Assembly: GCA_002425225.1 (NCBI GenBank)
Contig: DILV01000026.1
Coordinates: 242,695 to 306,694, forward strand
Length of the DNA stretch: 64,000 nucleotides
Source of the DNA: Thiothrix sp. UBA5583
Lineage (GTDB): Bacteria; Pseudomonadota; Gammaproteobacteria; Thiotrichales; Thiotrichaceae
Reading direction: 5' to 3'
Part shown: in pieces, positions 25,047 through 38,810 of the stretch
How positions within the stretch are numbered: the first letter of the stretch is position 1
Layout of the letters: each line of letters starts with the position of its first letter
The notes under the pieces: model-generated
Told to the model about the DNA's origin: nothing
Seen by the model: the letters and a program-made list of their open reading frames with translations, nothing else
Databases searched by the model: none
Made by a program: the position numbers and the translations under genes

Positions 25047-25120
25047 GCGGGTGTAGTTCAATGGTAGAACGGTAGCTTCCCAAGCTGCATACGTGGGTTC
25101 GATTCCCATCACCCGCTCCA
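25047..25120 (+). tRNA. tRNA-Gly (anticodon CCC)
   Basis: 74 nt with encoded CCA. Acceptor GCGGGTG pairs with CACCCGC; the D arm is GTTCAATGGTAGAAC; the anticodon stem GTAGC/GCTGC holds the loop TTCCCAA, giving anticodon CCC; the T loop is TTCGATT. The 3' end is the likely integration target of the adjacent element. Confidence 0.96.
25102..25120 (+). other. Candidate attL in the tRNA-Gly 3' end
   Basis: ATTCCCATCACCCGCTCCA here matches ATTCACATCACCCTCCA at 38794-38810 except for one substitution and a two-base deletion. The integrase gene starts 230 bases downstream, the normal arrangement for tRNA-targeted tyrosine recombinases. Confidence 0.5.
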
Positions 25121-25231: not shown

Positions 25232-25310
25232 ACCGGGTATGAAAGCGGGTAGAATTTTTGTTGCAGCCATTCCGGGCGGCTTTTTGCGGGTATGGAAAGC
25301 GGGTATAGTG
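25232..25310. repeat. Left-end arm-type repeats
   Basis: Two copies of GGGTAT-N6-7-CGGGTA occur at 25232-25255 and 25286-25310, just upstream of the integrase gene. The same motif occurs once at 38715-38740. Location at both ends suggests integrase or excisionase arm binding sites. The remaining part of 25121-25349 shows no gene. Confidence 0.55.
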
Positions 25311-25349: not shown

Positions 25350-26585
25350 ATGGCAGGCAAAACCGTTATATTGCTGACCGACTTGGAAGCCAAAAACGCA
25401 GAGGTGAAAGCAGCCGTTTACCGCATCAAGGACATGCCGGGGCTGTATCTGGAAATCAACCCAAACGGCTCGAAAATCTGGCGGCTACGTTACCGCAACC
25501 CGCAGACCAAAAAAGAGACCATGTTCACCATTGGCAGCTTCCCGGATGTGAAGTGCGCAGAAGCCCGCCACGCAGCCGAAGAAGCCAAGGCACTGGTGAG
25601 GCAGGGCATAGACCCCAACACCAAAAAGCAACGCGACCGGCTGAGAGGCAGCGGCAAAACCTTTCAGGAAGTGGCGCTCGAATGGCACGAAAACCAGTTA
25701 GGCCGCTGGAAAAAAAGCAACGCTGCACAGGTGCTGCGCTCACTGGAGCAGGACGTTTTCCCCCACATTGGCAACCACTCCATTGATGATCTGGAAGCAC
25801 CCGACATCCTAGCGGTGCTGCGCAGGGTAGAAGGACGCGGAACCCTGCCACAAGCCGAAAAGGTGCGCCAGCGTGTCAATGCCGTGTTTCGGTTCGCCGT
25901 GATAGCCGGTTACATCAAGGGAAACCCGTTACCCGAAAACATGCGCGGCGTTCTCAAAGCGTACAAAAAACAGCATTTCAACGCACTGACCGTCCAAGAG
26001 TTGCCCGCCTTCCTGCACGATCTGGCTGCATACCGCTCGGAAGTGCTGCGCAGGGCGGTACAGTTCACCCTGTTGACCTTTGCCCGCACGGGTTCGGTAA
26101 GGCTGGCAGAATGGCAGGAGATCGACTGGGAAAGTGCCGTGTGGAACATTCCGGCAGAACACATGAAAATGGAACAGCCGCACATCATCCCGCTATCGCG
26201 GCAAGCACTGAAACTGCTGGAAGAACTGCGACCTTTCACCGGGGATTCCCGCCTGATTTTCTACACCTCCCGGCGTGACAAGCCCATTAGTGAAAACGCC
26301 ATGCTGCAAGTTATCCGGCGTATCGGCTGGAGTGATGACACCACCATTCACGGCTTCCGTGCCATCGCATCCAGCACCCTGAAAGACAACGGCTTCCGAC
26401 ATGAAGTTGTGGAAAAACAGCTTGCCCATACCGGGCGCGACAAGATAGCCAACGCCTATGACTACATGGCGCGGTATATGGACGAACGCAAAAACCTGAT
26501 GCAATGGTGGGCTGATTTTCTCGATGAGCAACAACATGGGCGCTGCAAAGTCATCATCGGCAACTTTGCGCAGAGCAGGGCATGA
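25350..26585 (+). CDS. int: P4-type tyrosine integrase
   Basis: 411 residues. The N-terminal DUF4102 arm-binding domain (LTDLEAKNAEVKAAVYRIKD ... GLYLEINPNGSKIWRLRY) is followed by the SAM-like core-binding domain and the catalytic domain, with the first Arg in the FARTGSVRLAEW segment, H-x-x-R as HGFR, then LAHTGRD and the nucleophile tyrosine in the YDYMARYMDER segment. P4-type integrases use tRNA 3' ends, in agreement with the adjacent tRNA-Gly. AGGAG lies upstream of ATG 25350. Likely catalyses integration of the element that ends near 38810. Confidence 0.95.
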   Translation: MAGKTVILLTDLEAKNAEVKAAVYRIKDMPGLYLEINPNGSKIWRLRYRNPQTKKETMFTIGSFPDVKCAEARHAAEEAKALVRQGIDPNTKKQRDRLRGSGKTFQEVALEWHENQLGRWKKSNAAQVLRSLEQDVFPHIGNHSIDDLEAPDILAVLRRVEGRGTLPQAEKVRQRVNAVFRFAVIAGYIKGNPLPENMRGVLKAYKKQHFNALTVQELPAFLHDLAAYRSEVLRRAVQFTLLTFARTGSVRLAEWQEIDWESAVWNIPAEHMKMEQPHIIPLSRQALKLLEELRPFTGDSRLIFYTSRRDKPISENAMLQVIRRIGWSDDTTIHGFRAIASSTLKDNGFRHEVVEKQLAHTGRDKIANAYDYMARYMDERKNLMQWWADFLDEQQHGRCKVIIGNFAQSRA

Positions 26586-26633: not shown

Positions 26634-27194
26634 ATGAATGAGCGAGTCCGACACATGAGCGACACACCCAAGAAAACCCTGACACTGACCCGCAAGCCAG
26701 CCAGCACCAGCACTGCACCCGCTGGCGGTCTCACCCAACGCGGCGGCAAGCGCATCATCAGGCGCGAAGACCTGCCCAACGTCCAGCGACCGGGGCAGGG
26801 CAAACCCAAACCACCCGCCAACAAGACCAAACCCAAGAAACCACCACGCAAGCCGCAGCCAAAAAAGCAGGTAACACCACCCTCTGAACTCAAAAAGCGC
26901 GAACTAAACGACCGTCTCAACGGCTTCAAGGTCTGGCGCGAATACCTGCCCCTTTCCATCGGTATCGACAAGGAACTGTTCAAGCTGGTGAATGACGAGC
27001 ATTTCCCCGGCGCATCAAAGAAGGTTGTCCAACGTCTGCTGAAAATGCACACCCTGCACGGTCTCTACCTGCAAGCCATCGCGCGGGGTGGCGACCGCTA
27101 CCACCTCAACGGCGAACCCGATGGAACCATAACCAACTACCAGCAGCAACTTGCCGCCGAAACCCTCACCAAACGCCAGCAGGTGAAGACTTGA
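26634..27194 (+). CDS. ProQ/FinO-domain RNA chaperone
   Basis: 186 residues (ATG 26655 is a possible later start). The N-terminal 85 residues are rich in Lys, Pro and Gln and contain KKTLTLTRKP, a short peptide also common in ProQ-like proteins. The ProQ/FinO domain covers about 85-175, with KVWREYLPLSIGIDKELF and FPGASKKVVQRLLKMHT. Such proteins bind 3' hairpins and tails of structured RNAs; FinO represses plasmid transfer through an antisense RNA. In this element it may act on the hairpin-rich RNA around 32613-32850 or on host RNAs; both are inference. Confidence 0.85.
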   Translation: MNERVRHMSDTPKKTLTLTRKPASTSTAPAGGLTQRGGKRIIRREDLPNVQRPGQGKPKPPANKTKPKKPPRKPQPKKQVTPPSELKKRELNDRLNGFKVWREYLPLSIGIDKELFKLVNDEHFPGASKKVVQRLLKMHTLHGLYLQAIARGGDRYHLNGEPDGTITNYQQQLAAETLTKRQQVKT

Positions 27195-27223
27195 AAGCCG
27201 TCTGTTATGGCATATAATGCCAT
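27191..27223 (+). promoter_or_regulatory. Promoter and palindromic operator of the toxin-antitoxin operon
   Basis: TTGAAA and a perfect TATAAT are 16 bases apart. The -10 box lies inside the perfect palindrome ATGGCAT-ATA-ATGCCAT (27207-27223). A repressor on this palindrome would block the promoter, as expected for autoregulated toxin-antitoxin loci. The predicted transcript start falls at about the toxin ATG. Confidence 0.65.
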
Positions 27224-27224
27224 G

Positions 27225-27506
27225 ATGAAAGCAGTTAAATTACTCGACAGCAAACACGCCTTTGATGATGGCGCTATTCAGCAACTGGTTATATGGGAAC
27301 TACCGGAACCAGTGCTAGGCAGTCAGCACCGTTACAAATACCGGCTTTACTACGGCAAGGGTGGGGAACGTATCGTCGGGTATGACAATGAACGCGGCAA
27401 AGGCGACCACAAGCATATTCGTGGTGAGCAGTACGCCTACACCTTCACCGGCATTGATGATCTGGTAAGGGATTTCTTACAGGACTTGAAAGAGGCGCGG
27501 CAATGA
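27225..27506 (+). CDS. tumE: TumE-family toxin (DUF6516)
   Basis: About 93 residues. The core RYKYRLYYGKGGERIVGYDN and the segment GKGDHKHIRG match the TumE/DUF6516 toxin family as I know it; the conserved D-N-E-R-G-K-G-D-H-K-H could form the active site of a nuclease-like fold. The ATG codons at 27222 and 27225 lie just after the -10 box, so the mRNA may be leaderless; the frame also opens at 27207 inside the promoter palindrome, which is unlikely to be used. The stop overlaps the antitoxin start. Confidence 0.8.
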   Translation: MKAVKLLDSKHAFDDGAIQQLVIWELPEPVLGSQHRYKYRLYYGKGGERIVGYDNERGKGDHKHIRGEQYAYTFTGIDDLVRDFLQDLKEARQ

Positions 27507-27868
27507 ACGACAAAACACTAATGGTCTACATCGGCAGTGCAGAAGATGCACTAAAAGATTTTCTGGAAGTATGGAAAAGCGGTAAACCTGCAAACCCCGT
27601 AAACCGTCTGAGCTTTGAAAGCATGGCCGGATTCATGCGGGCATTCACCCCCAAACGCTGGGAACTACTGGAAGTCCTGAAACGTAACAGTGGTCAAAGT
27701 ATCAACCAGCTCGCCCAACTGCTGGGGCGTGATTACAAAAACGTACACACCGACATTCAAACACTGGTGGAACTGGGCATCGTTGAAAAAGACAAGTCCG
27801 GGCTGGTTTCTGTGCCTTGGGATGAAATCGAAACCCATGTAAAGCTGGGTATCGGCATGGCGGCATAA
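27503..27868 (+). CDS. tumA: TumA-family HTH antitoxin
   Basis: 121 residues with a winged helix: SMAGFMRAFTPKRWELLEVL, then INQLAQLLGRDYKNVHTDIQ as the recognition region and VPWDEIETHVKL at the end. This is the TumA pattern that follows TumE. It starts with ATGA overlapping the toxin stop and probably binds the 27207-27223 palindrome with the toxin. Order is toxin first, antitoxin second, as in other TumE/TumA loci. Confidence 0.82.
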   Translation: MNDKTLMVYIGSAEDALKDFLEVWKSGKPANPVNRLSFESMAGFMRAFTPKRWELLEVLKRNSGQSINQLAQLLGRDYKNVHTDIQTLVELGIVEKDKSGLVSVPWDEIETHVKLGIGMAA

Positions 27869-28230
27869 TGGAGAAAAGCGTTTTTTTTGATCTGTTTGAA
27901 CCTGAAAAAGCCGCAAACATGCTGATCAGGGCAGAGTTGATGCACAAACTAACCAAGGTACTGCAAGCCCGTTTCAGCACACAGGGCGAAGCGGCGGAAC
28001 TGTTGGGCGTTAGTCAGGCACGCATCAGCGATTTGTACCGGGGTAAGATCGGGCAGTTCACTATTGATATGCTTATCAATCTGCTATCCCGTGTCGGGCA
28101 GCGCGTAGAAGTCACCACCCATACCACCAGAGCCGGGACAATCCCGGCTTTTTTGTTTCCACCCATAAAAAAATATTCACAAAAAACGGGTGCAATGATT
28201 TGCACGAAAATGCACGAATCATTGCACTAG
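27868..28230 (+). CDS. XRE-type HTH regulator (HigA-like)
   Basis: 120 residues. The HTH is FSTQGEAAELLGVSQARISD, followed by KIGQFTIDMLINLLSRVGQR, a form common in stand-alone antitoxin-type regulators. It begins on the last base of the tumA stop, making a three-gene unit. Unusually, a perfect intrinsic terminator (28131-28154) lies inside the frame, and the last 25 codons run through it and through an inverted repeat. The C-terminal tail from about residue 88 (AGTIPAFLF onward) therefore may be a non-functional read-through extension, and most transcripts may end without a stop codon. Confidence 0.75.
   Translation: MEKSVFFDLFEPEKAANMLIRAELMHKLTKVLQARFSTQGEAAELLGVSQARISDLYRGKIGQFTIDMLINLLSRVGQRVEVTTHTTRAGTIPAFLFPPIKKYSQKTGAMICTKMHESLH
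28131..28154 (+). terminator. Terminator inside the XRE gene
   Basis: AGCCGGGA and TCCCGGCT form a perfect 8-bp stem with a three-base loop followed by six T. It lies 76 bases before the stop codon of the XRE frame. It separates the toxin-antitoxin operon from the capsid genes. Confidence 0.85.
28190..28227. repeat. Inverted repeat with internal TGCACG direct repeat
   Basis: GTGCAATGATT (28190-28200) and AATCATTGCAC (28217-28227) are perfect 11-bp arms. Between them TGCACG-AAAA-TGCACG is a direct repeat. Another TGCA-rich run follows at 28275-28293. Layout suggests a protein-binding or replication/packaging site upstream of the capsid gene. Confidence 0.6.
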
Positions 28231-28307
28231 CAAAAACACTAAGCCAAAGCAGGGCGCGGCCTTGATGCAGTTTTCGTGCATTGCATTTGTGCAAGGTATT
28301 TTTAAGC

Positions 28308-28325
28308 GAGTCCCCCCGCCCCGAC
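28308..28325. other. cos-like GC-rich segment
   Basis: TCCCCCCGCCCCGAC matches 11 of 15 bases of the complement of the P2 cohesive end as I remember it (TTTCCCCGCCTCGCC). In P2, cos lies just before the portal gene at the start of the head operon; here it would lie just before the capsid gene. Weak evidence because the region is simply C-rich. Confidence 0.25.
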
Positions 28326-28469: not shown

Positions 28470-29516
28470 ATGCAAAGCAATACACGCATCTGCTTTAACC
28501 GTTACCTCGGCGAAGTGGCAACAGCCAACAAGCTGGACAAGGCAACGGGCGAAGCATTCAATTATTCCCCGGCTGCACAGCAATCATTTTATGAACTGGT
28601 TGGCGAAAATGCCGACTTTCTGAAACGTATCAATCAGATTTCTGTTACCGCTCAACTGGGGCAGAAGATCGGGTTGGGCGTAAGCCGACCGATTGCCAGC
28701 CGTACCAACACCGACGAAACCGAACGGCAGACCCGCTACGTGGGCGAACTGGAAGGCGACACCTACCACTGTCACCAGACAAACTACGACACTCATCAGA
28801 AATACAGCCTCATGGATTCATGGGCGCATCTGGAAGACTTCGGCACGATCTACGCCAGCCAGATTGCCAGACAGGTTGCGCGTGACCGTCTCATGATCGG
28901 CTGGCACGGTGAAACCGCAGCGGCTGAAACCGACTTCACCGTCAACCCGCTACTGCAAGATGTAAATGAAGGCTGGATTGCCAAGGTACGCAAGAAACAG
29001 CCTCACCGCTTCATGGGGTACGGCTCGGACGGCAATCCGACCGCAGACACCTACAAAGTAGGAGAGGGCGGCAAGTATGGTTCATTGGATGCGCTGGTGT
29101 TCGATATGACCAGCAGTCTGCTGGATGTATGGCATCAGGAAGCTGATGATCTGGTTGTTATGGTCGGGCGCGAAATTTGGGTGGCGCACGGGCTGGCACT
29201 GCTGGCAAACAGCACACTACCAACAGAGCGTAATGCACTGCAAACATGGTTTGCTTCCAAGACCGTGGCGGGCTTGCCTTGTATTATGCCGCCATACCTG
29301 CCAGCCCGTGCCGTGATCGTCACCAGTTACGACAATCTGAGCATTTATCATCAGGTCGGCACACTCCGGCGCACCATCATTGACAATCCGAAGCGCGACC
29401 GCGTGGAAGAGTACCTCTCTGAAAATGAAGCGTATGTGGTGGAAGATTTCGGCAAGTTCGCTGGTGTGCGTAATGGTGCAATCCTGCTACCAGACGGCGC
29501 GGGCGGCTGGGAATAA
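28470..29516 (+). CDS. N: P2-family phage major capsid protein (gpN-like)
   Basis: 348 residues, the normal gpN size (357 in P2). The opening TRICFNRYLGEVATANKL, the region GVSRPIASRTNTDETERQ, the HQTNYDTHQKYSLMDSWAHL and the C-terminal DRVEEYLSENEAYVVEDFGKFA are typical of the P2 major capsid family. The frame is complete and shows no decay. It follows the terminator and the repeat region and is the first of the N-M-O trio, whereas P2 itself has the order Q-P-O-N-M. Neighbours M and O are close behind, so it probably forms procapsids with the O scaffold. The ribosome site is weak (GGAAC). Confidence 0.93.
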   Translation: MQSNTRICFNRYLGEVATANKLDKATGEAFNYSPAAQQSFYELVGENADFLKRINQISVTAQLGQKIGLGVSRPIASRTNTDETERQTRYVGELEGDTYHCHQTNYDTHQKYSLMDSWAHLEDFGTIYASQIARQVARDRLMIGWHGETAAAETDFTVNPLLQDVNEGWIAKVRKKQPHRFMGYGSDGNPTADTYKVGEGGKYGSLDALVFDMTSSLLDVWHQEADDLVVMVGREIWVAHGLALLANSTLPTERNALQTWFASKTVAGLPCIMPPYLPARAVIVTSYDNLSIYHQVGTLRRTIIDNPKRDRVEEYLSENEAYVVEDFGKFAGVRNGAILLPDGAGGWE

Positions 29517-29520
29517 GGCC

Positions 29521-30390
29521 ATGCCATCACCGGCAGCGCAGCACCGGGTAAAGGTGGAATCAGGGGTGAATGCACGCCATGATTCTGCCTCTGTTGACCG
29601 CAGAGCAAGTAACCAGTACCGGGCGCACCTGCACAAGCTGAAAGCCGACCTGAAACGGCTGTCCAGCATCCGCAGCCAAACCCGCAGGCTGGACGTGAAG
29701 CGCGAAATACTAACCGAATACAGCAACTATCTGGACGGTGTGTTATCCGCACCAGTCGCCAACCACAGCAGACAGGATGCCGTGATGGTTTGGTGTGCTG
29801 TGTGGTCGGCAGATGTGGGCGATGTCAGTAGGGCGCTTCAATTGGCTGCTTATGCGATTCAACACAACATGCAAGCACCGGAAGGATTCAATCGTTCGCT
29901 GGTAGAAGCCATCACGGAAGAGGTCAGCCGCAACGTGCTGTCAGCCAATCCAGCCGACCACCTGCCAGACATGCAAGCCTTGTGGGCGCTCGTGGATGGG
30001 TTGGATATGTCCGATACCATCACAGCCAAACTGTGCAAGGCGTATGGGCTGGCACTTGTACCAACTGACCCGCAGCGGGCAGCGCAACTGCTGGAACAGG
30101 CGCAAGCCATGCAGCCAAATATCGGCGTAAAAGGACACCTGAAAAAACTGCAAGGAGGTAAACCCGTGGCAATCACCACCGCAACCGCCAAAAGCTACGA
30201 CCTGCCAACCAATAGGGCGGCAAAGCTGGCGGGGGTATCAGTCCCCACCTTCCTGAAACTGGCATCACTCAACCCGGCTGAATTGCCCTATGTCTGCTTT
30301 GAATCAGGCAAGCATAAGGCGTTCAGGTTCTGCCAGCGTGATGTTGAAACATTCATGCAAAAGCGCACACATGGCGGCGCGGCTGCATAA
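29521..30390 (+). CDS. M: P2-type terminase small subunit (gpM-like) fused to an HTH domain
   Basis: 289 residues from ATG 29521, four bases after the N stop. Residues 1-205 match gpM: the MPSPAAQHR start, an Arg/Lys-rich helix, DAVMVWCAVWSADVGDVSRA, and the TPR-like DPQRAAQLLEQAQAMQPN. P2 gpM ends with a basic tail; here residues about 215-285 are instead an HTH_17/MerR-like domain (NRAAKLAGVSVPTFLKLA ... FRFCQRDVETFMQ). gpM is the DNA-recognition and cutting partner of the gpP ATPase. The added domain could give new packaging-site specificity or regulate transcription. No gpP gene is present in the element. Confidence 0.85.
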   Translation: MPSPAAQHRVKVESGVNARHDSASVDRRASNQYRAHLHKLKADLKRLSSIRSQTRRLDVKREILTEYSNYLDGVLSAPVANHSRQDAVMVWCAVWSADVGDVSRALQLAAYAIQHNMQAPEGFNRSLVEAITEEVSRNVLSANPADHLPDMQALWALVDGLDMSDTITAKLCKAYGLALVPTDPQRAAQLLEQAQAMQPNIGVKGHLKKLQGGKPVAITTATAKSYDLPTNRAAKLAGVSVPTFLKLASLNPAELPYVCFESGKHKAFRFCQRDVETFMQKRTHGGAAA

Positions 30391-30407
30391 CCCAAAGGAC
30401 ACATGAC

Positions 30408-31124
30408 ATGAAACTGACAACCGACTTTATCCGTGCAGCCGTTGAAGGCATCACCGCAGACGGGCGCGAAATCACCGCCAGCCAAATAGAGCAGATGGCG
30501 GCAAGCTACAGCCAGGACACCTATAACGCCAGAATCTGGCCTGAACACATCCGTGGCATCATGCCGGACGGCCTGTTCAAGGCATTGGGCGACGTGGTGG
30601 CAGCCAAAGCCGAACGCATCAAGGAAGGGGAGCTAGCCGGAAAAATGGCGCTGTATGTGCAATTGGAGCCACACCCCGACCTGATTACCATGGTACGCAG
30701 CGGGCAGAAAGTGCACCTCTCCATCGAAATGCACCCGCAATTCCCCAACACCAACGGTGCGTACCTGATGGGGCTGGGGGTGACTGACTCACCGGCATCA
30801 CTCGGCACGGGCGTCATGAAATTCAGCACCAGCAGCCGGGGTGAGTCTGTTTTCACTGAGCCGCAGGAACTTGCTACAACAGTGGAACCATTCGACACCG
30901 CAGGCCAACCGGAACATTTCAGCAAGATGGTGAACTACTTCACCACTGAGATAAACCGATTACGTGCAGAACGTGACGAGATCAAGGCCGCTTATGCCAA
31001 GCTCAAGGCAGACACGGATGCAGAGATTGACGATCTGAAAGGCCAGATTCCAGCAGCGGGTTATAAGTTCCGCCCATTGACGACCGGAACGGAACTGGAA
31101 GGGGAATTGAAGGGCTGGCGCTAA
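30408..31124 (+). CDS. O: P2-type capsid scaffold/protease (gpO-like)
   Basis: 238 residues against 284 in P2. The serine protease residues of gpO are kept: D18 in TADGREI, H47 in WPEHIRG and S105 in KVHLSIEM, aligned from memory to P2 D19, H48 and S107. The YLMGLGVTDSPASLGTG segment is also conserved. The C-terminal scaffold part is shorter and includes a coiled coil (about 165-215). It cleaves itself and the capsid protein and shapes the procapsid. A shortened scaffold could alter capsid size, which in P4 satellites is done with Sid; that is inference. Confidence 0.88.
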   Translation: MKLTTDFIRAAVEGITADGREITASQIEQMAASYSQDTYNARIWPEHIRGIMPDGLFKALGDVVAAKAERIKEGELAGKMALYVQLEPHPDLITMVRSGQKVHLSIEMHPQFPNTNGAYLMGLGVTDSPASLGTGVMKFSTSSRGESVFTEPQELATTVEPFDTAGQPEHFSKMVNYFTTEINRLRAERDEIKAAYAKLKADTDAEIDDLKGQIPAAGYKFRPLTTGTELEGELKGWR

Positions 31125-31513: not shown

Positions 31514-32434
31514 ATGGAACCAAAAAGTGATGTTGGCAATCTTTGGGGAATGACCGACGATGAAGTGGAGTATTACGGGAAACTAAGCATCCAGCATCAG
31601 GAGTATTTGCCGTGGTTATTTGTCAATTATGCTGAAGAAGCAGAAAGTAATGTGGGTAATATAAAAAAATCAATCAGCATTCTAAGAAACAGAAAGGAGA
31701 ATGTTAAAGTATGGCAAGATTATTATAAGTGGAATATGGAGCACGAACGGGCAAAGCATTTTCTAGGTGCTTCAATGTCAATTTATCATTTGGCCATGCT
31801 GATTTTTCCGTTTTTGTCACAAAAGCAAGAATATAAGGTTTTTTGTGATGCAGTGGTTCTGATGATATGCAACCAATCCATGCAAGCTAGTTCATTTCCG
31901 TGGCAGGGTGAATATTATCAATTGATTGAGCCGTATATTGACAGCAAAATGCTAAACGCCTTAACTGATGAAAGGTCAAGTATTCAGCTATATTCTAATC
32001 TTGTTGATAGTGGATTGAAAAACTTGGCAAAAATAACACATGCTGAATTTATAAGGGCGACCGTAAAGAATTGGCACTTGTCAAAATGTGCTGATATATG
32101 GACAAGTTACCTTGAATATATGGCTGTCCATGGGGCGCTTCCATCAAGGCTGCATTTCGGTGTTGAGTATAGAGGTGAAAAATATGAGGAGAAGGGAAAG
32201 ATAAAATTAGCAAAGAACTTTAACGCTCAAAAAACGCAAATACTAAAAGAAATAGAAGATCAAAAATTAGATGTTATGAATATTAACTTAAAACAGTTTA
32301 AGGCTAAATTCTTGAGCGACTATAAAGATATGACTGATCGTATGTTTATGAAAGCATGGTGGGAACTAAGCGGTGAAGGAAGAGTAAGATCAGACAAAAC
32401 AACGATCAAGAGAAAACCAAAGAAAACAAGCTGA
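31514..32434 (+). CDS. AT-rich cargo protein of unknown function
   Basis: 306 residues, mostly helical and charged, without signal peptide or membrane spans. Base composition is clearly AT-rich compared with its neighbours (codons such as AAA, ATA and TAT dominate), which indicates a separate origin. Visible features are WTSYLEYMAVHGALPSRLHF near 195-215 and a basic C-terminus (KRKPKKTS). AGGAGC lies upstream of ATG 31514. It sits alone between a bidirectional terminator and a long inverted repeat, the arrangement of a phage moron. Cargo genes in such positions are often anti-phage or lysogenic conversion genes; nothing in the sequence identifies the activity. Confidence 0.7.
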   Translation: MEPKSDVGNLWGMTDDEVEYYGKLSIQHQEYLPWLFVNYAEEAESNVGNIKKSISILRNRKENVKVWQDYYKWNMEHERAKHFLGASMSIYHLAMLIFPFLSQKQEYKVFCDAVVLMICNQSMQASSFPWQGEYYQLIEPYIDSKMLNALTDERSSIQLYSNLVDSGLKNLAKITHAEFIRATVKNWHLSKCADIWTSYLEYMAVHGALPSRLHFGVEYRGEKYEEKGKIKLAKNFNAQKTQILKEIEDQKLDVMNINLKQFKAKFLSDYKDMTDRMFMKAWWELSGEGRVRSDKTTIKRKPKKTS

Positions 32435-32552: not shown

Positions 32553-32960
32553 ATGATAACACAAACCAGAAACAAACCGTCAATATCATTCGATTTTTCC
32601 GAATTGCAAACCAGCGCACAAGCTGCGCAGAATATAGACGTTCGTGGAATCCACGAACAAACAGCAAAATTCTGGGACTACTATCCTCACTTGCGGCGGC
32701 AATACCGCCTCAACGACAACGGCGGTTTTTTTGTGCCTGTTGACGTACCATCTAGCGGTTATATGCCGGGGGTGCGTGGACTGAAATACGGTGCAAACCG
32801 AAACAAGCGCGTCGTTTCCGTAAGGACGATAGTAGCCCCCGGCAATTTTTGCCAACTACTAAAACCTTATGGAGTAACAGCGATGAACGCTATATCTCAC
32901 CCAATGGGCAACCCTGCCCGCCGTGCGTCTGCACACCTCACAGTCGGAGGTGTAGCATGA
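32553..32960 (+). CDS. Hypothetical leader ORF overlapping a structured region
   Basis: 135 codons ending in an ATGA overlap with the next gene, with GGAGG before that overlap. The start ATG 32553 has no convincing ribosome site. The frame passes through five hairpins including one followed by seven T. I do not recognise the product. Two readings are possible: a real small phage protein such as a P4-Ash-type leader gene, or an RNA region whose frame is only open by chance. Later in-frame ATGs (for example 32883) could start a shorter peptide coupled to the next gene. Confidence 0.4.
   Translation: MITQTRNKPSISFDFSELQTSAQAAQNIDVRGIHEQTAKFWDYYPHLRRQYRLNDNGGFFVPVDVPSSGYMPGVRGLKYGANRNKRVVSVRTIVAPGNFCQLLKPYGVTAMNAISHPMGNPARRASAHLTVGGVA
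32613..32850 (+). ncRNA. Candidate structured regulatory RNA / immunity-type leader
   Basis: Successive hairpins: GCGCA/TGCGC (32613-32627); a perfect 9-bp palindrome GTTCGTGGA-A-TCCACGAAC (32640-32658); GGCGG (32695) that can pair with CCGCC (32705), which can instead pair with GGCGG (32721) followed by seven T; and a closed domain 32765-32843. In that domain GCCGGGGG pairs with CCCCCGGC and encloses an arm GCG/CGC carrying a CGGT-GCAA-ACCG hairpin and an arm TCGT-TT-CC-GTAA-GG-ACGA. Both loops are GNRA tetraloops, and AATTTTT follows. The alternative pairing around 32705 is that of an attenuator. P4 phages control immunity with a processed leader RNA at a comparable position. Confidence 0.45.
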
Positions 32961-33226: not shown

Positions 33227-33501
33227 TCAGCTACAAATCCCCCATTACGCATATCAATCTGCACTCATTCGATGACCTTTCCCTGAAAGTCGCAGAGCTG
33301 GAAACACTCCTGTCTGTTGTCAACTTGGGCAACATAGACCAGACAGCAAGTTACCTGATCAGTGCAGCCGAACGCCTCGCCAACTGGCTGCAAGCCGACG
33401 TGGAAGCCCTGCACAAAGCCTACGGTGAACAGCACGGATGGTATCCAACAGACACCACCACGTCACAATCCAATGCAGACAAAGTGGAGGAATCAGCATG
33501 A
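33223..33501 (+). CDS. Small hypothetical protein of the replication operon
   Basis: 92 residues, ATGA-coupled to the previous gene. The helical segment VAELETLLSVVNLGNIDQTASYLISAAERLANWL suggests a small all-alpha protein and is weakly like the preceding product, perhaps an old duplication. The tail is Thr/Gln-rich. Unknown function. Confidence 0.6.
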   Translation: MISYKSPITHINLHSFDDLSLKVAELETLLSVVNLGNIDQTASYLISAAERLANWLQADVEALHKAYGEQHGWYPTDTTTSQSNADKVEESA

Positions 33502-33800
33502 GCCTGTTACCACCACGCAAGCGCAAAAGCCAGCAGCCGACCACCACCAGCGGCGGCAATGGCGGCAACCTGCCACCCTCAGTAATCATGCCAGTGATTG
33601 ATGACTGCATCATCCGTAACGTTGCCCCCGACTATGAGTTGACCAAGCTCACCGGCCTGAAGGTCTCAACCGTCTACAAACACGCAGCACTCGGCACATT
33701 CCCGCCCCAAGTCAAAATCACTGGGCGTGCATCTGGCTGGCGCTGGTCGCAGGTCAAGCAGTGGATTGACGGAAAACGCGACTGGAGGGCGGCGCAATGA
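33498..33800 (+). CDS. AlpA-like HTH regulator/excisionase
   Basis: 100 residues from ATG 33498 (ATGA overlap, GGAGG upstream). After a Ser/Thr/Gly-rich N-terminus the domain reads ELTKLTGLKVSTVYKHAALGTFP then GRASGWRWSQVKQWID, the classic AlpA/excisionase winged-helix pattern. In P4-like elements AlpA controls int expression and excision. It precedes the replication gene. Confidence 0.82.
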   Translation: MSLLPPRKRKSQQPTTTSGGNGGNLPPSVIMPVIDDCIIRNVAPDYELTKLTGLKVSTVYKHAALGTFPPQVKITGRASGWRWSQVKQWIDGKRDWRAAQ

Positions 33801-34030
33801 GTAACCCAACCCTGAATATGGATGTATCAGACATGAGCATCCCCGCTCACATGGTCGGGCTGGTTGGTGCTGACTGGCTGGCACGTCTGCCGCTGGTCAG
33901 TGCCGAAGTGAAAAGCCGCCTGACCACCACGCCATCAGCAGAGGCATGGGGACGGCGTGCCACCCTCTGGAATCGCTGGCTGACCCGCAACGTGCTGGAC
34001 GTGCCAGCAGGCCGGGAGGTGGCAGTATGA
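33797..34030 (+). CDS. Small hypothetical protein
   Basis: 77 residues, ATGA-coupled on both sides. Contains GADWLARLPLVSAEVKSRL and an Arg/Trp-rich segment (WGRRATLWNRWLTRN). No family recognised. Its position between alpA and the gpA-like gene points to replication or its control. Confidence 0.55.
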   Translation: MSNPTLNMDVSDMSIPAHMVGLVGADWLARLPLVSAEVKSRLTTTPSAEAWGRRATLWNRWLTRNVLDVPAGREVAV

Positions 34031-34266
34031 ACCACCTTGAACAACCTCAATATGCCGGGCTGCTGGAAATCATCACGGGTGAATGGGGCTATGCGCTGCA
34101 CAAGTCGGCAAACCCAGTCCGCGCATGGACAGAAATTCAGTACCGGATTGTCGGCATGGCTGACTGCGCCCTGCTTCTGAATCACGACGATGCAGCCTTT
34201 GATGAATTGCGGGCGCTGTCCAGTCTGGCGCTGGAACACCGCTTTAATAGTGAGGTGAAGCCATGA
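34027..34266 (+). CDS. Small hypothetical protein
   Basis: 79 residues, ATGA-coupled at both ends. Acidic, helical, with a repeated LL and LS pattern (CALLLNHDDAAFDELRALSSLAL). Not recognised. Starts at 34027, supported by the GGGAGG upstream. Confidence 0.55.
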   Translation: MNHLEQPQYAGLLEIITGEWGYALHKSANPVRAWTEIQYRIVGMADCALLLNHDDAAFDELRALSSLALEHRFNSEVKP

Positions 34267-35954
34267 TGCACGCCCCCACCCACCACCACCCGCATGATGC
34301 TGGCTGGATTGCCCAACAGTTCCAGCAATTGCCAGCCGTTCACCATGCCGTGATTGCCCGCGAATATGCCCAACGGTTCCGCACTGCTGGCGCTCATGAC
34401 GGCGAAAAGCGGCGCAATGCCAACCTGTACCTGCTGAACCTGACCGAACAGACAGGCGTTCGCGGCTTCACCCTCTCCGATGATGACATCAAGCGCAAAG
34501 CAGAACGCCTTGCCCTGCAATGCCGCAAGACTGCCCGCCTTGCCACCGCTCCCGCCCAAGCCCATGCCGCCCTACTGGCAATGTACGAAAGTCAGGGTTT
34601 TGACCCGGCAGCACTGGGCGCTTACGACAGCACCGGGCTGATAGCCCGCCTGTCTGATGCTGACTTCTGGCGGCGGCAACTGACCCGCCAGCAAGACCGG
34701 CAGCAAGAAGCCTTTGCCATCCGGCTGGGCATTGTCCGGCGTGGTCGTGGCCTGTATGTCTCTGATGCAGCCTTCCAGACCCTTCAGGCGCGGATTGCTT
34801 CCAGCCTCAAGGCGATGGCAGCACTGGAAGCCATCAACGAAGAAACCGGCGAAACCGTGGACATGCTGACCGTGCTGAAAGGCAGCGTGGCAAACCCGGA
34901 AGTCCGGCGCGTGGAACTCATGGTCAGGATGCGCGGCTTTGAAAATGCCGCCACCCAAGCCGGACACATCGGCACGTTCTACACCCTTACCTGTCCCTCA
35001 AAGTATCACCGCTTCACCGTGGACAAGGACACCGGCAAACCAGCCGACAACCCCAACTACGCAGGCAGCACCCCACGGCAGGCGCAAGCCTACCTCACCG
35101 CACTATGGGCGCGTATCCGCTCCAAGCTCAAACGCGATGGCCTGACCGCCTACGGCTTCCGCGTGGCAGAGCCACACCATGACGGCTGTCCCCATTGGCA
35201 CATGCTGCTGTTTGCGCCCCCAGCACAACAGGCAGGCGTTACCGCCATCATCCAGCACTATGCCCTGCTGGAAGACGGGAACGAACCCGGCGCAGCACAG
35301 TACCGTTTCAAGGCGGTAGCCATCGACAGCAGCAAGGGCAGTGCCACCGGCTACATTGCCAAATACGTTTCAAAGAACATCAACGGCTATGGCGTGGATG
35401 AAGACTTTGAAGGCGGCACTGATGCGGCTGACAGTGCGCAGCGAGTGCGGGCATGGGCAAGCCATTGGGGTATCCGCCAGTTCCAGCAGATTGGCGGCGC
35501 ACCCGTGGGCGTATGGCGCGAACTGCGCAGGCTGGACACCGCCCCTGATGGCCTGCTGGAACAAGCACGGCAAGCAGCGGATGCAGGCGACTGGGGCGCA
35601 TATCTGGCGCTGCAAGGCGGCGTGTGTGCGCTCAGAAAGGATATGCCCCTCAAGGTCTACACCGTGGAACGCATCAACACCGACACGGGCGAAGTCATCA
35701 GCAACAAATACGGGGAGATTGTCGGCAAGGTGGACGGCGTGGCACTGGCAGACATCCAGCAAGTGCAAACCCGCCTGCACGTCTGGCGCATCCAGCCCAA
35801 GGCAAAGCAGCCCGAACAGGAAACCCCAGTGCATTACGTGGCAGGGTTCGACCTGCTGCAAAGCGTGCTGTCTTCCTCTTCCAGCGGCGCAGCCGCGCCC
35901 CCTTGGAGTCCTGTCAATAACTGTACGGCAACAGCCGGGGAGGTGCTGCCATGA
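34263..35954 (+). CDS. A: P2 gpA-type replication endonuclease
   Basis: 563 residues. The HUH metal site is CPHWHMLLF (H311 and H313), and the two-tyrosine helix is YIAKYVSKN (Y364 and Y368), the arrangement of phage P2/phiX174 gpA rolling-circle initiators. The N-terminal 150 residues are helical and Arg-rich, and the RPAQQ-type region between 225 and 300 carries the TLTCPSKYHR segment usual in gpA. It nicks its own origin and leads replication. With it the element can replicate independently of the helper, unlike P4, which uses a primase-helicase. It is ATGA-coupled to both neighbours. The origin is usually inside this gene. Confidence 0.93.
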   Translation: MMHAPTHHHPHDAGWIAQQFQQLPAVHHAVIAREYAQRFRTAGAHDGEKRRNANLYLLNLTEQTGVRGFTLSDDDIKRKAERLALQCRKTARLATAPAQAHAALLAMYESQGFDPAALGAYDSTGLIARLSDADFWRRQLTRQQDRQQEAFAIRLGIVRRGRGLYVSDAAFQTLQARIASSLKAMAALEAINEETGETVDMLTVLKGSVANPEVRRVELMVRMRGFENAATQAGHIGTFYTLTCPSKYHRFTVDKDTGKPADNPNYAGSTPRQAQAYLTALWARIRSKLKRDGLTAYGFRVAEPHHDGCPHWHMLLFAPPAQQAGVTAIIQHYALLEDGNEPGAAQYRFKAVAIDSSKGSATGYIAKYVSKNINGYGVDEDFEGGTDAADSAQRVRAWASHWGIRQFQQIGGAPVGVWRELRRLDTAPDGLLEQARQAADAGDWGAYLALQGGVCALRKDMPLKVYTVERINTDTGEVISNKYGEIVGKVDGVALADIQQVQTRLHVWRIQPKAKQPEQETPVHYVAGFDLLQSVLSSSSSGAAAPPWSPVNNCTATAGEVLP

Positions 35955-36310
35955 ACCACCACCCTGATGAACTCTGGATGCTGCACCAGTACCGGCAGCA
36001 AACACAGCACCCCGCCCCAACCGCAGGCAACCGCCTTGCCGACCTGCTGGCAAGTATCGACTGGCACAAAGTATTCATCGTCACGGCGGCAATGGTCGCC
36101 CTGTCCTGCATCCTGTTTGCCAGTTACAAGCTGGTTGCCATCTGGAACCAGTACCGCGACTGGCTGCTGTTCCTGTCGTTCGTTGACCAGCACTACCCGC
36201 TGACCGTGTTCAGCGCACTGTTTGCCTTCAATTACCTGCAACACCGGGACAGCGAAAGCATGGGCATGTTCGCCCTGTTTTCAGCCGTCCTGAATGCCCT
36301 ATTGGTTTAA
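35951..36310 (+). CDS. Small membrane protein of the element
   Basis: 119 residues with a soluble N-terminus (about 40 residues) and two or three hydrophobic spans (VFIVTAAMVALSCILFASYK, then a span near 80-100). ATGA-coupled to the gpA-like gene. No family recognised. A helper for the large membrane protein that follows is plausible. Confidence 0.6.
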   Translation: MNHHPDELWMLHQYRQQTQHPAPTAGNRLADLLASIDWHKVFIVTAAMVALSCILFASYKLVAIWNQYRDWLLFLSFVDQHYPLTVFSALFAFNYLQHRDSESMGMFALFSAVLNALLV

Positions 36311-36321
36311 GGGGAAGAATC

Positions 36322-37929
36322 ATGGAAAACAACCAACTTGATGCAAAAAAACTGGAAATCCTGCAAGAGCAACTCAAGGTACACACCGAACAGGACAAAC
36401 GCGCCACGATGCTGCTGAAGCTGGCAATGGTGCTAACCGGGCTGCTGTACTTCATGTTTGAAAAGCACCTGTTCCTTGGGGACGCCATCACATGGGCAGC
36501 CTACTTTCAGGAATGGCATTCCGCACTCGACTTCCTGCTGATGTTCGTCATTGTCGTGATGAGTGCCGTCTTTCTGGCATGGGTCAAACATCATGCTTAC
36601 CTGCACTTCGGGCTGTATGGCTCCATCGGCCTGATCGTGTTCACCGTTATCGGCTTTGCCCTGTTTGCCGAGTTCTTCAGTTCATCCGCCAGTCAGGACA
36701 CCAAAAGCCGCGTACTGCTGGCAAACGATGCAGCCTATCAAGCCACCCTTGCCCCAATAGCCACGGTTCCAGCCGCACCGCTGTTAGGTGGCAGTAGTGA
36801 AGCCATCGCACGAGCGGAACAGAATCATGCCCGCTGCATGGCAAATCTGGGCAAGCCAGGGTATCCGCACTGCAACGGTGACAAAGCCAAACTCGACAGC
36901 CTCAAAGCCGAAGAAGCAGCCAACCGGCAAGCCGCCAAAGACATAGCCATTCAGTCCAACATCGCCACGGAGCAACTGAGGAACGAGCGGCAAGACAAGC
37001 TCAAAGCCGACAGTTACAACGCGGTGATTGTCTCAATGGCAAGATTCCTTGGTAGCCTGACCGGAACCAGCTACACCGACCACATCAAGGCGGCAACCGT
37101 CTTGACCATGCTCTTGGTTGCCGTGGCGTTTGAAATCCTGCACCACTTCCTGAGCCACGCCAAAGAACGCGCACAGAATGCCCGCTATGCCCTTGAACTG
37201 GAGCTGGCGAAATACAGCGGTCTTGCCCTACCCGAGAAACCCGACAGCGTACTGCCGCCCACTGACGGCGGCTTCAAGCAATCCGGTATCGGCTTCACCG
37301 CCCCTATCGGCAACACCGCCAAACTGGGCAACGCTGAGGCAGTCCCGCAGCACACCGGGCAGGCTGATACGGTAACAAGCGCCCCACTGTTCAAGTACCA
37401 GCAACCGCACCCGGCAGCAGCACCTGAGGTGAAAAAGCAGCCGTTCGGCTTCATCCCTACCCGTGCCAAATTGCAACCAGAACCGGCAGCAGATGACACC
37501 GGCAGCACCTACCGGCAAGCCATCCGGGACGGTTCCGCAGGCTGGCAGGATACCCCGCTTGATGCACCTCTGCACCCTCAAGCCAGAACCTCAAGCGAAC
37601 CTCAGGCCGGAGGGGGTAATAACCTCAGGCCGGAGGGTAGCAAGATCAACCCTCAGGAGAAGGTTATACAGGTTCCTGATGGGCTGTATGAGCAATGGGT
37701 GAAGGCCGTCTATGCTGGTGATTGCCTGCCATCCCTCAAGGGTTCGTGGTCATGGGTACAGAAGCGCATAGCAGGTACTCAGAAAGTGAAGGCATCAGCA
37801 ACAAACCGAGAAATCAGACTGGTAGCAGAAAGTTTTTTCCTCCGGGCGGTGAAGGACGGACACGCCAGCATTAACCCGAAATACACAGATCCTAAATGCG
37901 GTCTGTCTAAATACTTGTGGAGCAAATGA
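36322..37929 (+). CDS. Large membrane protein with coiled coil and C-terminal soluble domain
   Basis: 535 residues. A short helix (1-30) precedes three hydrophobic spans (about 38-52, 67-90, 95-122), a periplasmic-size loop with a coiled coil (180-240; EEAANRQAAKDIAIQSNIAT), a fourth span near 255-275, a long Pro/Thr/Ala linker, and a C-terminal domain of about 85 residues (YEQWVKAVYAGDCLPSLKGS ... CGLSKYLWSK) that may bind DNA or partner proteins. GGGGAAG precedes the start. Similar membrane proteins occur after rep genes in some filamentous phages and plasmids, but there is no Walker motif, so it is not a Zot/FtsK-type ATPase. Superinfection exclusion or replication at the membrane are possible. 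Confidence 0.6.
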   Translation: MENNQLDAKKLEILQEQLKVHTEQDKRATMLLKLAMVLTGLLYFMFEKHLFLGDAITWAAYFQEWHSALDFLLMFVIVVMSAVFLAWVKHHAYLHFGLYGSIGLIVFTVIGFALFAEFFSSSASQDTKSRVLLANDAAYQATLAPIATVPAAPLLGGSSEAIARAEQNHARCMANLGKPGYPHCNGDKAKLDSLKAEEAANRQAAKDIAIQSNIATEQLRNERQDKLKADSYNAVIVSMARFLGSLTGTSYTDHIKAATVLTMLLVAVAFEILHHFLSHAKERAQNARYALELELAKYSGLALPEKPDSVLPPTDGGFKQSGIGFTAPIGNTAKLGNAEAVPQHTGQADTVTSAPLFKYQQPHPAAAPEVKKQPFGFIPTRAKLQPEPAADDTGSTYRQAIRDGSAGWQDTPLDAPLHPQARTSSEPQAGGGNNLRPEGSKINPQEKVIQVPDGLYEQWVKAVYAGDCLPSLKGSWSWVQKRIAGTQKVKASATNREIRLVAESFFLRAVKDGHASINPKYTDPKCGLSKYLWSK

Positions 37930-38138
37930 ACATGGAGCAGCAAAAACAAAATCAGCGTATTGCCTATTGGGCAGATGGTTTTCACCTCTCCGAAGAATCA
38001 GCAAGGCTATGTGTCGATGTAGGGGCATTCTCTGCTGATTACCAAATAGCAGAATTCCCGGCTGATGCTGACCCGGCATTGATCGACAGTGAAATAGCTG
38101 CGCTACTGGTGCAACAGGCAGGGCAGGCCAGCACCTGA
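37926..38138 (+). CDS. Small acidic protein
   Basis: 70 residues, ATGA-coupled to the membrane protein. Sequence such as RIAYWADGFHLSEESARLCVDVG and EFPADADPALIDSEIAALL; no family recognised. Last coupled gene before the repeats and terminator at 38141-38200. Confidence 0.55.
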   Translation: MNMEQQKQNQRIAYWADGFHLSEESARLCVDVGAFSADYQIAEFPADADPALIDSEIAALLVQQAGQAST

Positions 38139-38243: not shown

Positions 38244-38531
38244 ATGTACCAAGACTGGAGACAATGGGCGCGGCTATGTTATGCACTGTTACTGCTGGCG
38301 CTGGTCTGGATGCTCATCAAGCCAGAGCAGTTAGAACAGTTTGCCAACTGGCAAGAAGCGCGGAACCTTCCCAAAGGCTTCCCCCTGTTGCAAGTCTCGC
38401 TCTTTGCCGTCTCAGCCGGTTTGATCTTCCCGAAGTCCAAACGGCTCGACAGCGACAACGCCAGCGATTCCTTGCAGTTCGCGGCTGGTCTGGCGCTTTC
38501 GGGGGTGGCGTGGCTTATCGCGCTACTGTAG
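38244..38531 (+). CDS. Small membrane protein at the element's right end
   Basis: 95 residues, with one hydrophobic span near 13-30 (LCYALLLLALVWMLIKP), a second around 50-62 (VSLFAVSAGLIFP) and a third at the C-terminus (GLALSGVAWLIALL). GGAGG precedes ATG 38244. Lies alone after the terminator. Holin-like size, but the sequence does not show a typical holin, and no endolysin is present. Confidence 0.55.
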   Translation: MYQDWRQWARLCYALLLLALVWMLIKPEQLEQFANWQEARNLPKGFPLLQVSLFAVSAGLIFPKSKRLDSDNASDSLQFAAGLALSGVAWLIALL

Positions 38532-38714: not shown

Positions 38715-38740
38715 ACCGGGTATAAAAGCGGGTATGGAAT
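38715..38740. repeat. Right-end arm-type repeat
   Basis: GACCGGGTATAAAAGCGGGT and the following bases repeat the motif found at 25232 and 25286. Presence only near both ends supports a recombination role. Confidence 0.55.
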
Positions 38741-38793: not shown

Positions 38794-38810
38794 ATTCACA
38801 TCACCCTCCA
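38794..38810 (+). other. Candidate attR
   Basis: ATTCACATCACCCTCCA differs from the tRNA-Gly 3' end by one substitution and a two-base deletion, and GTT also matches three bases further upstream. It lies 54 bases outside the arm repeat. Divergence from a perfect repeat means the border is not certain. Confidence 0.45.

Follow-up and report, generated by a model that had tools for sequence, protein, structure and literature searches.

A window of 64,000 nucleotides from Thiothrix sp. UBA5583 (contig DILV01000026.1; host genome of 3.55 Mb) was analyzed, and an integrated element of 13,692 bp was delimited in it, running from an attachment (att) core in a tRNA-Gly gene at 25102 to an att copy at 38794. 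The element carries P2-type head genes N, M and O together with its own integrase and replication gene, and is considered here as a candidate phage satellite. All of its open reading frames (ORFs), att cores, repeats and conserved blocks are given on the + strand.

The three head genes are complete open frames. N (28470-29516, 348 aa) matches the P2-type major capsid protein (PF05125, E 1e-107; PHROGs major head protein), M (29521-30390, 289 aa) the P2-type small terminase (PF05944, E 6.8e-29; PHROGs terminase small subunit) and O (30408-31124, 238 aa) the scaffold-protease (PF05929, E 2.4e-59; PHROGs head scaffolding protein). A preliminary description of this DNA had reported the genes as unbroken across 28470-31124 and as ordered N-M-O instead of the O-N-M of P2-like phages, and both statements were borne out. 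It had also listed residues D18, H47 and S105 of O, which we take to be the catalytic triad, as intact; they are present, the equivalent residues in the gpO of the P2 record being D19, H48 and S107.

When 20 ORFs of the element were scanned against Pfam and PHROGs at E 0.1 (a 106-aa ORF at 33946-34266 was left unscanned), no portal, large terminase, completion or tail family was found. With tblastn at 1e-3, nothing in the element matched Q, P, L or the tail proteins of phage KS14, Q, P, L, FI, D or J of the local P2-like prophage (G076, see below), or Q and P of P2. PF06056 was discarded as a large-terminase probe, its matches being too weak and short to be informative. The reported absence of portal, large terminase and tail genes was confirmed by both the ORF scans and tblastn.

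The tRNA-Gly(CCC) gene (25047-25120) forms the left end of the element. The attL core ATTCCCATCACCC (25102..25114) lies within its 3' end, and the attR core ATTCACATCACCC (38794..38806) is identical to it at 12 of 13 positions, which is a weak repeat; the 13.7-kb extent between a tRNA-Gly and a degenerate att copy agrees with what had been proposed. In the nearest relative (G014), the right att copy carries that host's own tRNA variant (T for A). The site is bracketed by xni-mutY-tRNA-Gly-ntrB synteny in G007 and G014, and by synteny G014 uses the same tRNA-Gly site, with about 8 kb of transposon sequence within its element. An exact empty site was not obtained: the window does not contain the genes located after the G007 tRNA, and on its right side it aligns with G007 solely from just before ntrB. 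Two GGGTAT-type repeats at 25232..25306 have 9-mers in common with 38715-38739 and similar repeats in G014, and are probably integrase arm sites. In an Rfam search over the element, the tRNA was the sole convincing match.

The tyrosine integrase (25350..26585; PF00589/PF22022/PF13356) is of the P4 type, with 39 % identity over 409 aa to P4 Int (E 1e-99). An AlpA/Vis-type regulator or excisionase (33438..33800; PF05930, 8.4e-11) is 40 % identical to P4 Vis, and a gpA-type replication initiator (34263..35954; PF05840, E 3.4e-82) is present as previously stated. The element had been called P2-derived. Its head genes are P2-type, but its chassis is P4-like, and the element is not simply derived from P2. 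As in phage satellites generally, the element is integrated, lacks essential virion genes and has an integrase and a replication gene.

Related elements and the state of their head genes

A total of 20 such elements were counted (the window, nine genome regions, the genome contigs L041, L042 and L046, and seven IMG/VR contigs without known host), and those traceable to a host are all from Thiotrichaceae. L039, L121, L122, L234 and L237 are partial contigs. Broken copies in G081 and G005 and a weak match in G024 were left out of the count. PF05125 matched in 11 of 40 genomes and the satellite capsid profile in 15 of 63 genomes of the order, the window's own genome being included in both figures. 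By context, these 15 consist of 12 genomes with satellites, G076 with a P2-like prophage, G005 with a broken remnant and G024 with a weak partial match. The G005 locus (G005:C1:1700000-1739999; L199 and L200) contains the broken fragment of a capsid together with an O relative of 310 aa, and no BLAST match to satellite or other KS14 genes was found nearby.

N and M are found in all 20 elements and O in 16 (split in G010). The order is N-M-O in six (the window, G010, G014, G017, L038 and L042) and O-N-M in ten (G008, G009, G011, G012, G015, L040, L046, L122, L234 and L237). In G019 and L041, a ClpP-type protease directly follows M in place of O. It lies at 10944-11906 in L041 (PF00574, 1.8e-28); the corresponding match (PF00574, 3.2e-34) was made by one of 79 ORFs and is G019's by homology. 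That the protease was replaced and not lost in these two cases suggests that a head protease is selected for.

None of the 20 elements matched Q, P, L or tail proteins when KS14, G076 prophage and P2 queries were used (tblastn, 1e-3; several contigs are partial). Absence is based on tblastn for all elements, and for the window also on the 20 scanned ORFs. Two tiny minus-strand BLAST matches in L041 (Rz and G) were read as chance. The preliminary description had named degraded copies of Q, P and tail genes at the corresponding positions of relatives as the sign of a decaying prophage; such copies were not seen in any of the 20 elements.

Non-satellite N loci served as a control: both Q and P were present at 147 of 149, and at least one of the two at 148. 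The exceptions are L118 (H, O, N, M and L present, neither Q nor P in reach) and L079 (P without Q). At least 4.5 kb upstream of N was required; 64 of 213 non-satellite loci were shorter and are uncounted, and the 213 include cases in which a single contig is represented by two records or ranges. On the satellite side, 16 loci were compared, which correspond to 14 elements (L235 = L040 and L236 = L046).

Between the window and G014, the dN/dS values (nonsynonymous to synonymous substitution rates) of N, M and O were 0.07, 0.175 and 0.146, respectively, at a dS of 0.8-1.2. These ratios indicate that N, M and O are under purifying selection. When a maximum-likelihood tree was drawn for 61 capsid proteins, the 18 satellite capsids were separated from 43 phage capsids (42 picked at fixed steps from the loci, and KS14) by one branch with 100/100 support. 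Since the tree is unrooted, the satellites may constitute a single clade, or the phages may be nested inside the satellite group.

Mobility is suggested by L038, an IMG/VR contig of 14,853 bp with an exact 63-bp direct end repeat, which starts within the 3' end of the same tRNA-Gly. Because of this repeat, L038 closes to a 14,790-bp circle with a rebuilt att site. L040, which has two integrases, was considered as a further circle and rejected, the second integrase belonging to a decayed copy. Integrases adjoin tRNA-Gly (the window, G014 and G017), tRNA-Ser (L046) and tRNA-Pro (G009).

A remnant of a decaying P2 prophage would likewise be missing Q, P, L and the tails, and a few copies are indeed broken (G010 and one copy in G081). 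However, the same gene set recurs in 20 elements with no match to the missing genes, the dN/dS values are low, the capsids stand apart from the sampled phage capsids, the integrase and Vis are of the P4 type, and one relative is circular. With Q and P together at nearly all control loci as well, this explanation was rejected as extremely improbable.

A cos-like block shared with a P2-like prophage

G076 has the sole intact non-satellite capsid gene found in the 63 genomes of the order. The gene belongs to a P2-like prophage from the same bacterial family, which carries Q, P, O, N, M, L, W, J, I, FI, FII, T, U, X and D and is also IMG/VR contig 2585428147_000002; KS14 Q and P match it at 46 % and 40 %. 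Sheath-family matches in the same-genus genomes G005, G007 and G013 were considered as P2-like helpers and rejected, as BLAST with the KS14 proteins gave at most one weak tail match per stretch (FI 22 %, W 29 %).

Upstream of N in the window, a candidate cos or packaging site (28190..28323) consists of TGCAC iterons (strict block 28201-28226) and a C-rich box TCCCCCCGCCCCG (28311-28323). When the prophage was compared with 17 satellites by BLAST at E 0.05, G014, G017 and L038 matched a non-coding stretch 96-227 bp past the end of Q. On alignment, the window has the same layout as G014, G017, L038 and G010, namely TGCAC/GTGCA iterons and a CCCCCCGCCCCG-type box. The iteron block of G010 lies about 1.5 kb from N, and G014 has the box with weaker iterons. 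The local alignment of prophage and window scored 50 (maximum of 27 in 1000 dinucleotide shuffles). A looser iteron pattern occurred in 9 of 332 loci (4.5 Mb), all of them copies of the window, G010, G017, L038 or the prophage, and the strict pattern was found in only two IMG/VR contigs, one satellite and that prophage. TGCAC clusters were also seen upstream of O in G012, L046 and L122.

The prophage iteron block sits past the 3' end of Q, which is the location of cos in P2 (cosL occupies positions 1-19 of the P2 record and the end of Q is at 187, with 168 bp between). The 19-base cos end of P2 was sought in the window with up to five substitutions and was not found. From position and similarity, we infer that the iteron block is cos. 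The shared iterons could instead be regulatory (late promoter or replication), a reading compatible with any other explanation of the element, and their place upstream of the head operon in the satellites would suit this. In the prophage, however, they lie in the same orientation beyond the 3' end of Q, at the P2 cos place, and their rightward neighbour is Q, which is read leftward. A regulatory role is for these reasons rather doubtful, though it deserves to be kept in view.

In addition, the G076 prophage (L336, 629-2583) has relatives of the window ORFs starting at 35951 (35 % aa identity) and 36322 (47 %), and in this region prophage and satellite DNA agree at about 72-73 % in two stretches. 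The satellite and the helper type therefore share more than the cos-like site.

Residues 230-288 of the window M (about 30208-30384) were modelled as a winged helix-turn-helix (HTH), a domain that the gpM of KS14 and of G076 do not have. AlphaFold predicted helix-helix-strand-strand-helix for this C-terminus, mostly with a predicted local distance difference test (pLDDT) score of at least 90. When the M model was compared with the PDB using Foldseek, no match was obtained at E 0.001 and the top matches were helical-repeat proteins. The C-terminal domain is present in M of the window, G014, G017, G019, L038 and L041, and is disrupted in G010. In seven of the ten O-N-M elements, a separate HTH-like protein of 65-82 aa follows M, as found with a profile of the fused domain among 20 nearby ORFs; Pfam HTH_17 was detected in two of five stand-alone proteins scanned, both below the cut-off. 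Because the domain is fused to M in one group and encoded by a neighbouring gene in the other, it is suggested that M and the HTH domain work together. The cos-like block shared with the prophage and the added M domain would both fit packaging steered by gpM.

Other genes of the element

Downstream of the integrase are a ProQ/FinO-like protein (26634..27194; PF04352, E 1.2e-12), a TumE-like toxin with an HTH partner (27207..27868; PF20126 and PF25212), which are probably a toxin-antitoxin pair, and an HTH_37 protein (27868..28230; PF13744) whose 3' end overlaps the cos-like block; the iteron block, N, M and O follow. The ProQ/FinO-like RNA-binding protein stands after the integrase in most satellites; it was undetected in G011, and the G015 stretch has two copies. 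Toxin-antitoxin families vary (TumE-type, MazEF, BrnTA and HI1420-type) between the window pair and ORFs of six related elements.

O is followed by a 306-aa accessory protein in low-GC DNA (31514..32434), without Pfam or PHROG match and with a 70 % identical protein in G014, then by a leader-like block, AlpA, gpA and two proteins without assigned function (35951-36310 and 36322-37929, those with relatives in the G076 prophage). The predicted structure of the second is poor (mean pLDDT 55.7). Two small ORFs (37917-38138 and 38244-38531) have relatives in other elements. The leader-like block (32640..32865, within ORF 32553-32960) precedes the AlpA/gpA operon and is conserved in satellites of either gene order. 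It had no convincing Rfam match and is possibly, as a guess, a P4-like immunity or leader region. Outside the element, a 947-aa protein (16875-19718) appears by eye to be OmpA-like with repeated cadherin/Ig-like segments.

Proposed life cycle and relation to known satellites

We interpret the element as an integrated phage satellite that would provide its own shell and its own choice of DNA, and would take portal, motor and tail from a P2-like helper. A probability of roughly 70 % is given to this reading, which agrees overall with the preliminary description and is supported by the lack of relatives with degraded genes, the conserved block and purifying selection. Excision would be carried out by the P4-type integrase with Vis/AlpA, and replication by the element's own gpA initiator. 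Its N and O would build a procapsid, probably a small one, which takes in the helper portal, and its M with the winged-helix DNA-binding domain would recruit the helper large terminase to the cos-like site that precedes N. The helper would contribute portal (Q), motor (P), completion proteins and tail, and its tails would complete the particle. What the sequences show is the gene content, its conservation, the lack of matches to Q, P, L and tails, a relative that closes to a circle and a cos-like sequence in common with a P2-like prophage; from these we infer shell formation, shell size, portal borrowing, packaging and transfer.

The P2 capsid has T=7 symmetry. When the P2 genome (33,593 bp) is scaled by (4/7)^1.5, about 14.5 kb is obtained, so that a T=4 shell would be of approximately the right size for elements of 13.7 kb and 14.8 kb. 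P4, with a genome of 11,624 bp, is described with a T=4 capsid (PMC6893505). In the same source gpO is presumed to serve portal incorporation and cleavage, and the satellite O would therefore need to recognise the helper portal.

In another explanation, N and O would enter helper procapsids and shrink or spoil them without forming a whole shell. SaPIbov5, a Staphylococcus aureus pathogenicity island (SaPI), offers a precedent: its Ccm is a capsid homologue that is described as redirecting size and as unable to replace the helper capsid protein or to form shells without it (PMC5052747, PMC6893505). Satellite-encoded capsid homologues also occur in other phage-inducible chromosomal islands (PICIs; PmCI172 and EcCICFT073), and the satellite capsids studied here are homologous to those of P2-like phages. 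However, Ccm is only distantly related to the capsid protein of its helper (modelled fold, 19.2 % identity; PMC5052747), whereas N aligns along the whole phage capsid. Moreover, N adjoins its own scaffold-protease or the ClpP-type protease that replaces it, which would be required for assembling a whole shell, and the window element has a small terminase as well. The scaffold-protease beside the capsid gene argues for more than Ccm-like size switching, and interference of this kind is considered unlikely.

The same parts list could also belong to an anti-phage device, in which head genes and cos-like site are decoys that titrate helper portal and terminase while the element stays unpackaged; the shared iterons would then compete for terminase. 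On the other hand, mobility of the element is suggested by its integrase, Vis and replication genes, by integrases beside several different tRNA genes and by the circle-closing relative, and a protease would be superfluous for a decoy. This possibility is regarded as very unlikely.

Several observations weigh against the satellite interpretation. Neither O nor a ClpP-type protease was seen in L121 and L039 (both partial contigs). HTH_17 exceeded the Pfam cut-off in the M of L041 alone (1.6e-7) and fell below it in L038, G017 and the window, and the fused-domain profile found no HTH gene after M in G008, L046 and L234. Decay is evident in G010 (split O, altered M end and no integrase match in the stretch) and in G081, where a further N has a stop at the contig end. 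The window itself was missed in the BLAST at E 0.05, and many satellites are without a TGCAC cluster or have it elsewhere, some seemingly with other repeats when inspected by eye; the cos assignment draws on position and similarity. The 63-bp repeat of L038 could be mimicked by tandem copies, and tandem elements occur (G017 and L040). Finally, when 25 genomes, including 16 from the window's genus, were searched with KS14 Q and P, no relative was obtained (these searches had no internal positive control); therefore no resident helper was found there.

With P4-like satellites the window element has in common the P4-type integrase, Vis/AlpA, integration at a tRNA gene, the probable P2-like helper type, a cos-like site shared with that type and a size near the 11.6 kb of P4. 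The core genes used to describe P4-like elements include psu, sid, delta, epsilon and alpha (PMC8628076). BLASTP at 1e-3 was run on 17 of the 20 elements, and no match to Sid or Psu was obtained in any of the 17. Alpha primase-helicase, delta and epsilon were not found in the window element, and alpha-like matches were made by G009 and G011 alone among the 17. Unlike P4-like satellites, the window element has gpA-type instead of alpha replication, and its own capsid, scaffold-protease and small terminase.

An own capsid, head protease and small terminase are shared with capsid-forming PICIs (cf-PICIs). These are described as encoding portal, head-tail connectors, large terminase and HNH and as taking tails alone (PMC10690885), whereas the window element has P2-type head genes and lacks portal, connectors and large terminase. 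Two satellites of Streptomyces phages, MulchRoom and MiniFlayer, also bring capsid and packaging genes, but encode large terminase and portal in addition, according to the same source. Satellite DNA is selected by an own small terminase in SaPIs that have TerS, or by a protein redirecting that of the helper, as in proteobacterial PICIs that have Rpp (PMC10690885). This choice by the satellite is comparable to the HTH fused to or following M, although those islands use the helper capsid protein. P2-like phages (Peduoviridae; KS14 and the G076 prophage) have homologous N, M and O, but also Q, P, L and tails, whereas the window element has N, M and O only and the capsids of the satellites group apart from all 43 of the sampled phage capsids. 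By the features tested, the element appears to be a functional intermediate between P4 and cf-PICIs and a member of neither.

In the passages of the literature examined, satellites either rework the helper capsid with one or two proteins (P4, SaPIs and phage-inducible chromosomal island-like elements, PLE) or supply the complete set of head and packaging genes (cf-PICIs and MulchRoom/MiniFlayer). A split-capsid family would fall between them, with shell and DNA choice from the satellite and portal and motor from the helper. No description of such an element was found in searches limited to open-licence papers, the original cf-PICI paper lying outside the comparison. We see even odds that these elements form a third class of satellites, in which shells made wholly of satellite capsid and scaffold-protease would take helper portal, motor and tail, and the M winged helix, fused or separate, would set the packaging site.

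The interfaces between shell and portal and between TerS and TerL would become testable as natural exchange points, and a candidate helper type with a common packaging-site sequence is provided. We also suggest caution before P2-capsid loci that have no portal or terminase are discounted as debris of prophages. If the interpretation is true, the phage head would have a modular boundary, with shell and portal-motor coming from two different genomes.

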